NCBI GenBank assembly: GCA_025352305.1
Contig: JANXTQ010000277.1
Coordinates: 1 to 5,145, forward strand
Direction of reading: 5' to 3'
Source of the DNA: Actinomycetes bacterium
GTDB lineage: Bacteria; Actinomycetota; Acidimicrobiia; Acidimicrobiales; RAAP-2
DNA: 5,145 nucleotides
The notes below the pieces were generated by a model. That model searched no databases, had not been told where the DNA came from, and saw only the letters and a list, made by a program, of their open reading frames with translations. Below, one piece after another: positions 1,796-4,571 of this stretch. A program made the translations under genes and the position numbers. Positions within the stretch are counted from its first letter, which is position 1. Every line of letters starts with the position of its first letter.

Positions 1796-2212
1796 TTACT
1801 TCTTGGTCGCCCAGAAAATTTCGGAGATCTCGTTGATCTCGCCGAGCAGGCGATCCGCAACGGAAACGTCATTGGTTTTCTTGGCTTCGCCGGCTGATTT
1901 CGTTGCCTTCCAGAACAGGTCGTGCAGCTGGGGGTAGTTGGCGAGGTGCTCGGGCTTGAAGTAGTCCGTCCACAGCACCCACAAGTGGTGCTTCACCATG
2001 TCGGATCGCTCTTCTTTGATCAACGTCGCTCGGACCTTGAAGTCGGCGTCGGTCGACGCGTTGTACTTCTCCATGCACGCTTTGACCGACTGAGCTTCAA
2101 TCGTCGCCTGCGCCGGATCGTAAACACCACAGGGCAGATCGCAGTGGGCGTGCGCTACGAGCACGTTTGAGTGACGATCAAGGACAGCCTCGATGCGGGT
2201 ACGAAAACTCAT
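1796..2212 (-). CDS. sodN: Nickel superoxide dismutase precursor
   Basis: This encodes a nickel-containing superoxide dismutase precursor of 138 residues, which converts superoxide to oxygen and hydrogen peroxide. The nickel hook HCDLPCGVY lies at residues 23-31. After removal of the first 22 residues (ending VLVAHA), His23, Cys24 and Cys28 become the mature ligands His1, Cys2 and Cys6. The remaining 116 residues match the known four-helix subunit: YDPAQATIEAQSVKA follows the hook, with VRATLIKEERSDMVKHHLWVLWTDYFKP in the middle and EISEIFWATKK at the end, very like the Streptomyces enzyme. The leader is not a Sec signal; it is a pro-sequence cut by SodX, encoded divergently next door. The start is supported by an AAAGGTG Shine-Dalgarno 5 nt upstream (2218-2224). 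Nickel or oxidative control is expected from other actinobacteria, but no Nur-type site is obvious here. Confidence 0.97.
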   Translation of the reverse strand: MSFRTRIEAVLDRHSNVLVAHAHCDLPCGVYDPAQATIEAQSVKACMEKYNASTDADFKVRATLIKEERSDMVKHHLWVLWTDYFKPEHLANYPQLHDLFWKATKSAGEAKKTNDVSVADRLLGEINEISEIFWATKK

Positions 2213-2305: not shown

Positions 2306-2626
2306 ATGGCAACAGCGTGGTGCGAACTACTCGTGCGCCGCGTACGAATAGAAGGTCCGTCGATGCTTCCCACTCTGGTGCCCGGAGAGATCGTCACCGC
2401 CGTGAGGCGGTGGCGCCGGCTCCGGAGCGGAGACGTGGTGGTGCTGAAAAGTCCGGTCGGCGATCAGTGGATCGTGAAACGTTGCCAGCTGATCGGGCGA
2501 ACCTCGGTGCAACTAACTGGCGACAACGAACAGTTCTCCTTCGACTCCCGTGATTTCGGTTCCGTTGCTCCTCGTGACATCCATTGGATCGTGCTGAACA
2601 GTTCGATCGCGCCGCTTTCGCCTTAG
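2306..2626 (+). CDS. sodX: Nickel-type superoxide dismutase maturation protease (S26 family)
   Basis: This 106-residue peptidase resembles the signal peptidase I/LexA-like S26 and S24 proteases and is expected to cut the SodN leader just before the nickel-binding His. EGPSMLPTL (16-24) carries the catalytic Ser19. RSGDVVVLKSP (40-50) is the conserved strand, and the general-base Lys is Lys58 in WIVKRC (55-60). TGDN (71-74) and SFDSRDFGSV (78-87) are the closing S26 boxes. No membrane segment is seen, unlike type I signal peptidases, which fits a cytosolic maturation enzyme. The gene is divergent from sodN rather than tandem with it as in Streptomyces. ATG 2306 has no Shine-Dalgarno but has a possible -10 box 8 nt upstream, suggesting a leaderless message. 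A GTG at 2333 is an alternative start that would still keep the catalytic Ser. The function rests on family plus adjacency to sodN, and is secure. Confidence 0.93.
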   Translation: MATAWCELLVRRVRIEGPSMLPTLVPGEIVTAVRRWRRLRSGDVVVLKSPVGDQWIVKRCQLIGRTSVQLTGDNEQFSFDSRDFGSVAPRDIHWIVLNSSIAPLSP

Positions 2627-2776
2627 TAATCTCAAGCCGTTTCTCGGTGATCCGATTCAGTCACCTCACGATCACTGAGTAGCTGTAATTTGATGGGGGA
2701 CAACCCTGCTGACCAGCCATTTTGTTGCTATCTCGGAAAATAATCATTTTGATGCTGTTTAATGTCAAAGATGATG
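2627..2776 (+). other. Intergenic region with TGATG-like repeats upstream of the RHH gene
   Basis: No gene is visible here. The first half has only weak inverted repeats, such as GGTGA/TCACC near 2646-2664, without a T-tract, so no firm sodX terminator is found. From about 2720 the sequence becomes A/T-rich. TGATG or close variants occur at 2750, 2760 (TAATG) and 2772, continuing at 2783 and 2794 into the palindrome over the next gene's start. The spacing is 10-12 bp, about one helical turn. This suggests upstream operator sites for the RHH protein. Confidence 0.4.
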
Positions 2777-2807
2777 GTATAGTGATGTCATGTTGATATC
2801 ACTATAC
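2777..2807 (+). promoter_or_regulatory. Palindromic operator overlapping -10 box and start codon of the RHH gene
   Basis: GTATAGTGAT (2777-2786) and ATCACTATAC (2798-2807) are perfect 10-bp inverted repeats. After one mismatched pair the symmetry continues as TCA/TGA around a TGT centre, giving 13 of 14 symmetric pairs over 31 bp. The left arm contains TATAGT (2778-2783), an excellent -10 box 6 nt before the ATG at 2790, which lies at the palindrome centre. A protein bound here would cover the promoter and start point together. The right arm contains TATCACT, which matches the WATCACW heptad known for the RHH omega repressor; that likeness may be coincidental. Confidence 0.75.
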
Positions 2808-3245
2808 GTCGAAAACGTGCAAACTGATCTGCAGACGTTGTCACGATTGGGTGGCGAGGAATTGGCGTCGGCCGGATCGCGCCTGGCCGACGCTCTTGAG
2901 CCGGCTCTGCGTGGGCGGCTTTTTGAGGCGCTGAGTCAACTCGTTGCCGAGGCCAACTCGAACTTGGGATCCGCTCGTTTGGAGCTGCGCTTGAGCGGTG
3001 ACGAAGTGACTCTCGTTCGCGAACAGAGTTCCAACGACCCAGTTGAAACCCCCGGTGATCTAAAGGCCCGCTTTGCACTGCGTCTACCCGAAGATTTGAA
3101 GACAATGATCGACGAGCAGGCTGACCGCTTGGGAGCTTCCACCAACGCGTGGATGATCCGAGCGCTCGCCAAAGAGCTCGGCGAAAACGGCCCGCCAAAT
3201 GTGACTCAAAGCGGTCGCACGTTGCGCGGAACGGGCAAGAGCTAA
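2790..3245 (+). CDS. Ribbon-helix-helix (HicB/Arc-like) DNA-binding protein
   Basis: This 151-residue protein has a C-terminal ribbon-helix-helix domain. The strand ARFALRLP is at 93-100, helix A (EDLKTMIDEQADRLG) at 101-115, and helix B (NAWMIRALAKEL) at 119-130 after the AST turn. It would dimerise and bind DNA through the paired strands. The tail (138-151) is Gly/basic-rich. Residues 1-90 are a separate, mostly helical segment followed by a short strand pair (LELRLSGDEVTLVRE, 64-78), and I do not recognise it. Such proteins are often labelled HicB-family antitoxins, but no HicA toxin lies nearby. In actinobacteria they often sit next to DUF4097 genes, as here. There is no Shine-Dalgarno, and the ATG lies 6 nt after TATAGT, so the mRNA is probably leaderless. 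The palindrome over its start suggests autoregulation, and probably control of the downstream gene 53 nt away. Confidence 0.85.
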   Translation: MLISLYVENVQTDLQTLSRLGGEELASAGSRLADALEPALRGRLFEALSQLVAEANSNLGSARLELRLSGDEVTLVREQSSNDPVETPGDLKARFALRLPEDLKTMIDEQADRLGASTNAWMIRALAKELGENGPPNVTQSGRTLRGTGKS

Positions 3246-3298: not shown

Positions 3299-4129
3299 AT
3301 GGTGAGCAACGCACCAGTAAACGACCTCGATGTCCACAACACAGCGTCCAGCTCGGCCAATGACCACGAGCGCATCGAGAAGTTCAATGCAACAGGGCCG
3401 ATTAACTCAACGATTCGAACGGCCTCGGCTCGTGTGACAGTTCAAAATGGTCCTGACGACACCTGCCGGGTGCGAGCCACGATGAGCGGCTCGAGCAGCG
3501 CGGAGCGTTTGGCGCACATTGAAATTAGCTTTGACGAGGCAACGAACACCCTGCTCGTTGATACCCGTCCCAAGGGACGTCGACGTGTCCGGATATTTGA
3601 TTTTCACAACATTGACCTGCACATCACGATGCCGGCCTCGTCCAACGTAGAACTGCACAGTGCGTCGGGGGACGTGACGTTGGACGGGACGTATGACGAA
3701 GTTTCTATCGCCAGTGCGTCCGGTGACGTCACTGCTGGAGTTGTTAAGGGTTCTCTCACGGTCAACGTCGCTTCTGGCGACGTCAGCACTGGCCAGGTTC
3801 ACGGACGTGCAAGCGCTCACTCCGCTTCGGGGGACATTTCGCTGGGCGACGTTTCCGCTGACGTCAACGTTCACGCGGTCTCGGGCGATATTCGTTTGAC
3901 GGCCGTGGCGCCACTCAACGCCAAGGTTCACAGCGTGTCTGGAGACGTGACCGTGATGGTCAAGCCCGGATTCATCATTGAAGTAAACGCCAAATCATTA
4001 GCGGGCTCTGTTCGTTCAGAGATCGCCCTTGATGATGCAGCGTCGTTGGAACATCACGGCGAGAACAGCGGCGTTATTTCGATTGACGCCTCCACGGTCT
4101 CGGGGGACGTTCGAATCGCCCGGTCGTAA
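3299..4129 (+). CDS. DUF4097-type beta-repeat protein
   Basis: This 276-residue protein belongs to the DUF4097 (adhesin-like beta-strand repeat) group, whose biochemical role is unknown. Residues about 25-115 form an introductory region with F-x-x-x-G-P-I-x-x-x-I-x-T-A-S-A and a strand ending in IDLHITMPASSNVELHS. Then comes a repeat with SGD at 123, 141, 159, 177, 195 and 214, a degenerate copy (LAGSV) near 234-238, and a last SGD at 268. The steps are 18, 18, 18, 18 and 19 residues, as expected for turns of a beta-solenoid. There is no signal peptide, lipobox or membrane segment, so it is probably cytosolic, unlike many DUF4097 proteins. It follows the RHH gene and is probably co-transcribed, so the RHH protein may control it or bind it. 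The Shine-Dalgarno is good. Family call is confident; function is unknown. Confidence 0.88.
   Translation: MVSNAPVNDLDVHNTASSSANDHERIEKFNATGPINSTIRTASARVTVQNGPDDTCRVRATMSGSSSAERLAHIEISFDEATNTLLVDTRPKGRRRVRIFDFHNIDLHITMPASSNVELHSASGDVTLDGTYDEVSIASASGDVTAGVVKGSLTVNVASGDVSTGQVHGRASAHSASGDISLGDVSADVNVHAVSGDIRLTAVAPLNAKVHSVSGDVTVMVKPGFIIEVNAKSLAGSVRSEIALDDAASLEHHGENSGVISIDASTVSGDVRIARS
3659..3949 (+). repeat. Tandem protein repeat, about 18 residues (54 bp) per unit
   Basis: Six consecutive units share the core (S/V)(A/V)SGD(V/I), at almost constant 18-residue spacing. The DNA has diverged: SGD is written with varied codons such as TCG GGG GAC, TCC GGT GAC and TCT GGC GAC. The periodicity is therefore kept at protein level rather than by recent duplication. 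Confidence 0.85.
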
Positions 4130-4190: not shown

Positions 4191-4571
4191 ATGCCCGATC
4201 AGAAGCCGAGTGTTCGCGACCTCGGTGCCTTCATCCGCGAACAACGAGCCAACGCTCAAATATCACTTCGTCGACTCGGTGAACTCGCCGGCGTATCGAA
4301 CGTCTATCTGTCCCAGATAGAAGGCGGACTGAAGCGACCGAGTGCGGACATTCTGCAAAAAATCGCCAAAGCGCTGCAGATATCTTCCGAGACTCTCTAC
4401 GTCCAGGCCGGCATATTGGACGAAGATCGTCACGGCTCTACTGAGGCCGCGATACTCGCCGACCAACGCCTCAGTGACGCCCAACGCCAAGCCCTATTAA
4501 CGGTCCTGAGAAGTTTCTTAGCTGACAACGCGACCGATCCTTCGACGCCCCCGAATGCTGCAACGACTTAG
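4191..4571 (+). CDS. XRE-family helix-turn-helix transcriptional regulator
   Basis: This 126-residue regulator has an N-terminal Cro/C1-type helix-turn-helix domain over about residues 10-72. LGAFIREQRANAQISLRRLGELAG is followed by the recognition helix region SNVYLSQIEGG (36-46), then KRPSADILQKIAKALQISSETLYVQAGIL. The C-terminal part (about 80-112) is a helical tail, ILADQRLSDAQRQALLTVLRSFL, with a disordered end. From memory it strongly resembles a conserved single-domain actinobacterial XRE regulator (Rv0474-like in mycobacteria). In mycobacteria that gene lies in the same general region as mshA, which fits the gene found at 4808. The frame is open upstream to 4029, but that stretch overlaps the DUF4097 gene and has no homology-like content, so ATG 4191 is preferred. 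Its targets are unknown. It may be unrelated to the RHH-DUF4097 pair. Confidence 0.9.
   Translation: MPDQKPSVRDLGAFIREQRANAQISLRRLGELAGVSNVYLSQIEGGLKRPSADILQKIAKALQISSETLYVQAGILDEDRHGSTEAAILADQRLSDAQRQALLTVLRSFLADNATDPSTPPNAATT

Follow-up and report, generated by a model that had tools for sequence, protein, structure and literature searches.

Genes and features of the locus

The window, meaning the whole 5,145-nucleotide stretch analysed, is the entire contig C155 of a 1.79-Mb assembly, and among the named entries of the genome collection it is closest to actinobacterial MAGs, for the most part Acidimicrobiaceae or Acidimicrobiales; closer proteins, at up to 79% identity, occur in the protein database. 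The window encodes a ribbon-helix-helix (RHH) protein followed by a DUF4097 (Toastrack) protein, with a predicted promoter, a palindrome and a series of short boxes around the RHH start codon (Table 1). Downstream of the DUF4097 gene lies an XRE-type HTH gene whose product resembles small phage- or defence-type regulators, and elsewhere in the window a nickel superoxide dismutase gene is divergent from a likely maturation protease gene.

Table 1. Positions of genes, protein domains and DNA elements in the window
Feature	Positions	Strand	Remarks
Nickel superoxide dismutase gene	1796-2212	-	
Likely maturation protease gene	2306-2626	+	
Box 1, TAATGTCA	2760-2767		Decayed; 12 bp before box 2
Box 2, TGATGGTA	2772-2779		Decayed; 11 bp before box 3
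Predicted extended -10, TGG TATAGT	2775-2783	+	TG 2775-2776, TATAGT 2778-2783
Palindrome	2777-2807		Arms 2777-2790 and 2794-2807; box 3, TGT and box 4, with outer arms GTATAG and CTATAC
Box 3, TGATGTCA	2783-2790		Perfect; shares its first T with the end of the -10 and its last A with the ATG
Box 4, TGATATCA	2794-2801		Perfect; over codons 2-4; as a rule genus-specific
RHH protein gene, 151 aa	2790-3245	+	Predicted leaderless start at 2790
N-terminal domain of RHH protein	2790-3026		Residues 3-78 in the model
Recognition strand ARFALRL	3066-3086	+	Residues 93-99, with R94, A96 and R98; by alignment
DUF4097 (Toastrack) gene	3299-4129	+	Putative second operon gene; Pfam PF13349, 83.9 bits
TGACGTCA octamers	3724-3731, 3859-3866		Perfect; within the DUF4097 gene
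XRE-type HTH gene	4191-4571	+	

The first gene product scored 19.2 bits with the Pfam model RHH_1, below the cut-off of 20.5, and profile matches of its RHH part were obtained with the DUF1778 antitoxin (6e-4), Arc (4e-3), AmrZ (5e-3) and Mnt (5e-3). A monomer model (mean pLDDT 76, pTM 0.45) has helices at residues 101-114 and 118-133 and no DSSP strand at 94-99. Foldseek matched this model to Arc (1bdv_B) and AtaR (6gts_C) at probability 0.99, with no match at E <= 0.001; against Arc chain 1bdv_B the TM-score was 0.72 (by the Arc chain), with an rmsd of 1.1 over 42 columns and an E-value of 0.6. Taken together, the structural and profile matches place the protein in the RHH (Arc/MetJ) superfamily. 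Its N-terminal domain, modelled as two helices and a beta-hairpin, has no Pfam match and, among the best 50 of 105 Foldseek matches, no credible PDB match, and a C-terminal LRGxGR tail is kept within the genus. PADLOC returned no match for the RHH and DUF4097 proteins.

This RHH regulator is widespread and uncharacterised, and some public records label its homologues ‘HicB family antitoxin’. A HicAB toxin-antitoxin system was considered for the locus and rejected, given a HicB model score of 16.2 bits on the RHH protein (cut-off 21), a next gene encoding DUF4097 and no adjoining HicA. In a scan of 60 loci, hand-picked from 177 extracted ORFs, the gene following RHH encoded DUF4097 in 51, and HicA was absent both from the four Pfam families found in that scan and from three annotated Streptomyces plasmid loci. 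These three named plasmid loci carry arrays, of the kind described below, built from TGGYRCCA boxes, one of them imperfect; the third reads ‘hypothetical protein’, DUF4097 and then cytochrome P450, and the other two read ‘HicB family antitoxin’, DUF4097, ABC ATPase and permease. The latter two share their gene linkage with an RHH-Toastrack-ABC operon, a setting in which an actinobacterial RHH factor is already known and in which the Toastrack domain has been proposed to help assemble sub-membrane stress complexes (PMC11237479). Unlike that operon, the window lacks ABC genes beside DUF4097; the accessible text of PMC11237479 describes no operator, and no description of an RHH-DUF4097 box operator was found in the accessible parts of the open-licence literature.

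A predicted leaderless promoter overlapped by boxes

Six bases (2784-2789) separate TATAGT from the ATG, as the first-pass annotation had read it, and an upstream TG extends the element. There is no good -35 at spacers of 15-19 in the window's species, nor does a Shine-Dalgarno word precede the RHH gene start in the window. Leaderless genes are recognised by a TANNNT roughly 12 bp ahead of the start and by the lack of a Shine-Dalgarno sequence (PMC3160421), and TATAGT begins 12 bp before the ATG here. In 134 homologues whose array keeps the same register, positions -12 to -7 agree with TATAAT at a mean of 3.8 of the 6 letters, against 0.7 to 3.2 when the frame is shifted by 1 to 3 bases (3.2 at a shift of -3), and 93 of these 134 match TTGACA in four or more of its 6 letters when the best spacer from 16 to 19 is taken; a Shine-Dalgarno-like 4-mer occurs in 1 of 180 loci. 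The transcript of the RHH gene is therefore probably leaderless, with a predicted start at 2790, and the spacing of the -10 together with the rarity of Shine-Dalgarno-like words lends comparative backing to the leaderless start first proposed from the window. In the 134 in-register loci the box array covers the region from -35 to the start, which is the placement of an operator over its own promoter and gives comparative backing to the promoter overlap likewise proposed at first pass.

The palindrome itself was confirmed, with 13 of 14 pairs, the outer 10 perfect, and a 3-nt centre. It is the one palindrome in the window with at least 13 of 14 pairs, and when the entire window was shuffled 300 times with its dinucleotides preserved, 3 of the shuffles contained such a palindrome (0-6 nt loop). 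Comparison with 32 same-genus relatives shows that its two outermost pairs are kept in 2 and 3 (8 expected at 25%) and its three innermost pairs in 24, 26 and 26; relatives have in common the two-box core and not the palindrome in its full 31 bp. The expectation that relatives would share a palindrome over the start codon thus stands for the two-box core and array and falls for the outermost arm pairs, and the 31-bp palindrome is superseded as a unit. What is conserved is the box TGAYRTCA, a palindrome of 8 bp that recurs at 11-bp steps, and the 31-bp palindrome is the downstream, best-preserved half of a tandem array of such boxes, which extends over the predicted -10, the ATG and codons 2-4. 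In the window's species boxes 3 and 4 are the strong ones; in most other groups boxes 1 to 3 are.

Recurrence of the array across homologues

Homologues were matched at E <= 0.001 in 32 of 148 relatives, 36 of 99 genus genomes, 71 of 397 genomes of the order and 70 of 396 of the phylum, and at E <= 1e-8 in 138 of 394 genomes of one class and 51 of 249 of another, from which 85 and 48 loci, respectively, were hand-chosen to spread over families. Many weaker order, phylum and genus matches, spanning the RHH part only, were left out, as were duplicates (L027, L028, L030-L032, L113-L115, L127, L128, L131 and L146), giving a set of 218 loci with the window included. Also dropped before counting was L105, a split homologue without the usual start codon, in which the start position reads ATA and a three-box array adjoins. 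An array was scored as a pair of TGnnnnCA boxes, the inner four letters ignored, 10-12 bp apart and at most 60 nt from the start, with at least 7 of 8 letters matching and half a point taken off for steps other than 11. Mononucleotide shuffles were the null for array counts, exact-pair distances and far pairs.

Of the 218 homologues, 180 had a two-box chain no more than 60 nt from the start, compared with 1.6% of mononucleotide shuffles, and the second box of the best pair stood most commonly at register -7 (119 of 184). Distances between exact boxes were 11 in 141 of 217 loci, 22 in 88, 33 in 29 and 44 in 19, where shuffle means were at most 0.3; smaller side peaks fell at 12 (17 loci), 23 (21) and 32 (27), and 56 loci had three exact boxes at 11-bp steps. 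An operator of omega type, also suggested at first pass, was set aside: the window does contain a WATCACW match (TATCACT, 2797-2803), but exact pairs of TGnnnnCA boxes, the motif to which this test applies, peak at 11, 22, 33 and 44 with none at 7. In a control stretch 200-269 nt upstream, an exact pair at distance 11 was found in 7 of 213 loci, and in part these may be genuine arrays belonging to operons whose first gene is not RHH.

For 18 of the 38 homologues lacking a near array, the 400 nt upstream contain an exact pair at 11 bp (0.12 expected), which argues against an array tied to the start codon as such. These distant pairs lie 69-342 nt upstream (L036, L037, L067-L069, L077, L079, L081, L092, L099, L102, L104 and others), with probably an upstream gene or a leader between pair and homologue start; some of the homologues concerned carry a Shine-Dalgarno-like word. 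No array was found by either test (60-nt chain or 400-nt exact pair) in 20 of the 218 loci, ten of them in the window's genus with degraded upstream boxes. Judged by these counts, the box array recurs beside most sampled homologues across actinobacteria. The two octamers within the DUF4097 gene are perhaps a mere product of Gly-Asp-Val repeats.

Codon constraint and exclusivity of the site

Box 4 coincides with codons 2-4 in 33 members of the window's genus. Ile3 is written ATA in all 30 members with Ile at that position, the other three having no Ile there, whereas beyond codon 6 these genes use ATA for 1 of their 168 Ile codons. Ser4 is written TCA in 26 of 32, versus 34 of 414 further along the genes. 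One locus with Ala but outside the genus (L085) was left out of the codon test. Although the 33 genes are related, such counts indicate that peptide conservation alone cannot account for ATA in 30 of 30.

In the window's own genome, the promoter described here is the sole place with the two-box pattern at no more than one mismatch; further places appear at two or three mismatches, and because of these weak secondary targets are possible. Of the 99 genus genomes, 11 contain exact TGAYRTCA-N3-TGAYRTCA, with 12 places in all (reversed-pattern control 0), and 11 of the 12 are RHH promoters, all of which had already been seen before this genus count; the exact form is present in only 10 of the 33 genus genomes with the full gene. 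The exception is a lone exact two-box site in genome G078 (L288:2037-2055; G078:C14:118336-118354), with no RHH match within about 2 kb and with adjoining reading frames unlike the RHH protein. The corresponding TGGYRCCA-N3-TGGYRCCA was found exactly in 23 of 61 genomes of the genus taken as Streptomyces (reversed control in 9). In the 21 of these 23 that had not been looked at before, an RHH gene adjoins the site in 19 and two are without one, and in 18 of the 19 the site ends 10-11 nt before the RHH start or overlaps it. Within the window's genus, exact pairs are nearly exclusive to RHH promoters.

Correspondence between residue 96 and box base 3

Residue 96 of the recognition strand goes with base 3 of the box. 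Where residue 96 is Asn, box base 3 is G in 38 of 46 loci, with 8 ties and no A; where it is Ala (as in the window), Thr or Ser, base 3 is A in 113 of 134, with 16 ties and 5 G. Asn accordingly goes with TGGnnCCA and Ala, Thr or Ser with TGAnnTCA (Fisher 3e-31 without ties, the rows not being independent). The Fisher and pair tests excluded ties, which made up 24 of the 180. The same match was seen in 18 of 18 far pairs, which were scored afterwards. Base composition was rejected as the cause, as flanks with GC >= 0.60 still gave 38 Asn-G and 0 Asn-A, with 5 G and 99 A for the rest.

All seven homologues with an R-T-T strand (L148, L149, L181, L188, L189, L191 and L216) have the composite TGACACCA-N3-TGGTGTCA upstream of the start, compared with 0 of 211 others. 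The three with untied boxes form one clade, so the composite box may reflect a single event; it hints at a second specificity position at residue 95.

On a tree built with the recognition strand masked, residue 96 changes 4-5 times and the box base 7 times. The base changes in the same direction on three of four residue-change branches, two of them leading to clades with support of 79 and 62, and only partially on the fourth (N to T, L148/L149/L181). The independent-pairs test was underpowered, with one residue-differing pair on starred branches, and in the reverse test, with three starred base-differing pairs, the residue differed in 0.9 and did not in 2.1 on average. The residue-box match is backed by many loci but by few phylogenetically independent events, with only four or five changes on the tree.

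Known systems and a proposed mechanism

Several RHH systems resemble parts of this arrangement. Arc of phage P22 is alike in its RHH dimer fold, by the Foldseek comparison above, and in having half-sites one turn, or 11 bp, apart; its operator consists of two half-sites, compared with arrays of up to about four palindromic 8-mer boxes here, and the protein described here, unlike Arc, has an extra N-terminal domain and a DUF4097 partner. The met box of MetJ is an 8-bp palindrome with a GACGTC-like core that is likewise used in tandem, but met boxes abut at 8-bp steps, whereas the present boxes are set at 11-bp steps by 3-bp spacers. The omega repressor is an RHH protein that reads tandem repeats, in its case a WATCACW heptad every 7 rather than an 8-bp palindrome every 11 bp. 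AmrZ of Pseudomonas aeruginosa, an RHH autoregulator, contacts bases through strand residues Lys18, Val20 and Arg22 (PMC3325190), which align with R94, A96 and R98, and differs in its GGC half-sites and other extra domains and in having no DUF4097 link shown.

The favoured reading, at a probability of roughly 0.86, is that the array is a tandem operator through which the RHH protein is predicted to bind, and likely to repress, its own, probably leaderless, RHH-DUF4097 operon. One RHH dimer would occupy each 8-bp box, neighbouring dimers would lie about one helical turn apart on the same DNA face and cooperate, and a filled array over promoter and start would block RNA polymerase; residue 96 would read base 3 of each half-box, Asn reading G and Ala, Thr or Ser going with A. 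The first-pass proposals that the palindrome acts in DNA as an operator, and that the encoded RHH protein is its ligand, draw comparative backing from conservation, the residue-box match and the codon constraint. The sequence comparison itself shows the array, its 11-bp period and promoter register, the constraint on synonymous codons, the near-confinement of exact pairs to RHH promoters in the genus, and the residue-box match. Binding, cooperativity and repression, like the leaderless start, we infer, the autorepression from where the array lies and from other RHH proteins such as RelB: its dimers sit on one helix face and need correct spacing to cooperate (PMC2812701).

That the boxes are instead read by another regulator, for example the XRE-type HTH protein, with the RHH protein acting elsewhere, seems improbable: an HTH regulator gene does lie two genes downstream of the RHH gene, and RHH binding is itself a prediction, but box base 3 follows RHH residue 96, exact sites stand almost only at RHH genes and palindromic boxes at 11-bp spacing suit RHH dimers. 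Far less credible still is a palindrome serving as an RNA hairpin or arising only because the peptide MLIS is conserved. It does extend across the ATG, and the genus does keep MLIS, yet the peptide cannot account for the uniform use of ATA and the boxes persist outside the genus without MLIS; a hairpin is further disfavoured because the predicted transcription start, at or next to 2790, would leave the left arm untranscribed.

Somewhat better placed than either, though still unlikely, is the possibility that the RHH protein, once bound to the array, works mainly as an activator or promoter-shaping factor and not as a repressor; AmrZ and NikR do both (PMC3325190). Many loci also have boxes upstream of the -35, at pair distances of 33 and 44, but the common register places boxes over the spacer, -10 and start. 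A protein bound over these three elements usually blocks polymerase.

Implications for RHH regulators in actinobacteria

With autorepression through the array as the favoured reading, the DUF4097 protein might, as a conjecture, release the RHH protein from the operator. A more ambitious extension, doubtful at present, would see a phylum-wide one-component envelope-stress switch, in which the Toastrack (DUF4097) protein draws the RHH repressor, its partner, away from an operator that is phased with the helix and built into both a leaderless promoter and the first repressor codons, and in which the strand code (residues 95 and 96) was switched together with the operator in actinobacterial evolution.

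At the level of the operon, a phased box array matched to an RHH strand residue would represent a variant of the RHH autorepressor, and the regulator gains a predicted target, a predicted mechanism and a candidate specificity residue. The use of a rare codon, ATA in 30 of 30, where predicted operator boxes fall within codons 2-4 shows a coding sequence bent to a regulatory site, and the correspondence of Asn with G and of Ala, Thr or Ser with A makes DNA reading by the beta-sheet testable by a swap of one residue and one base.
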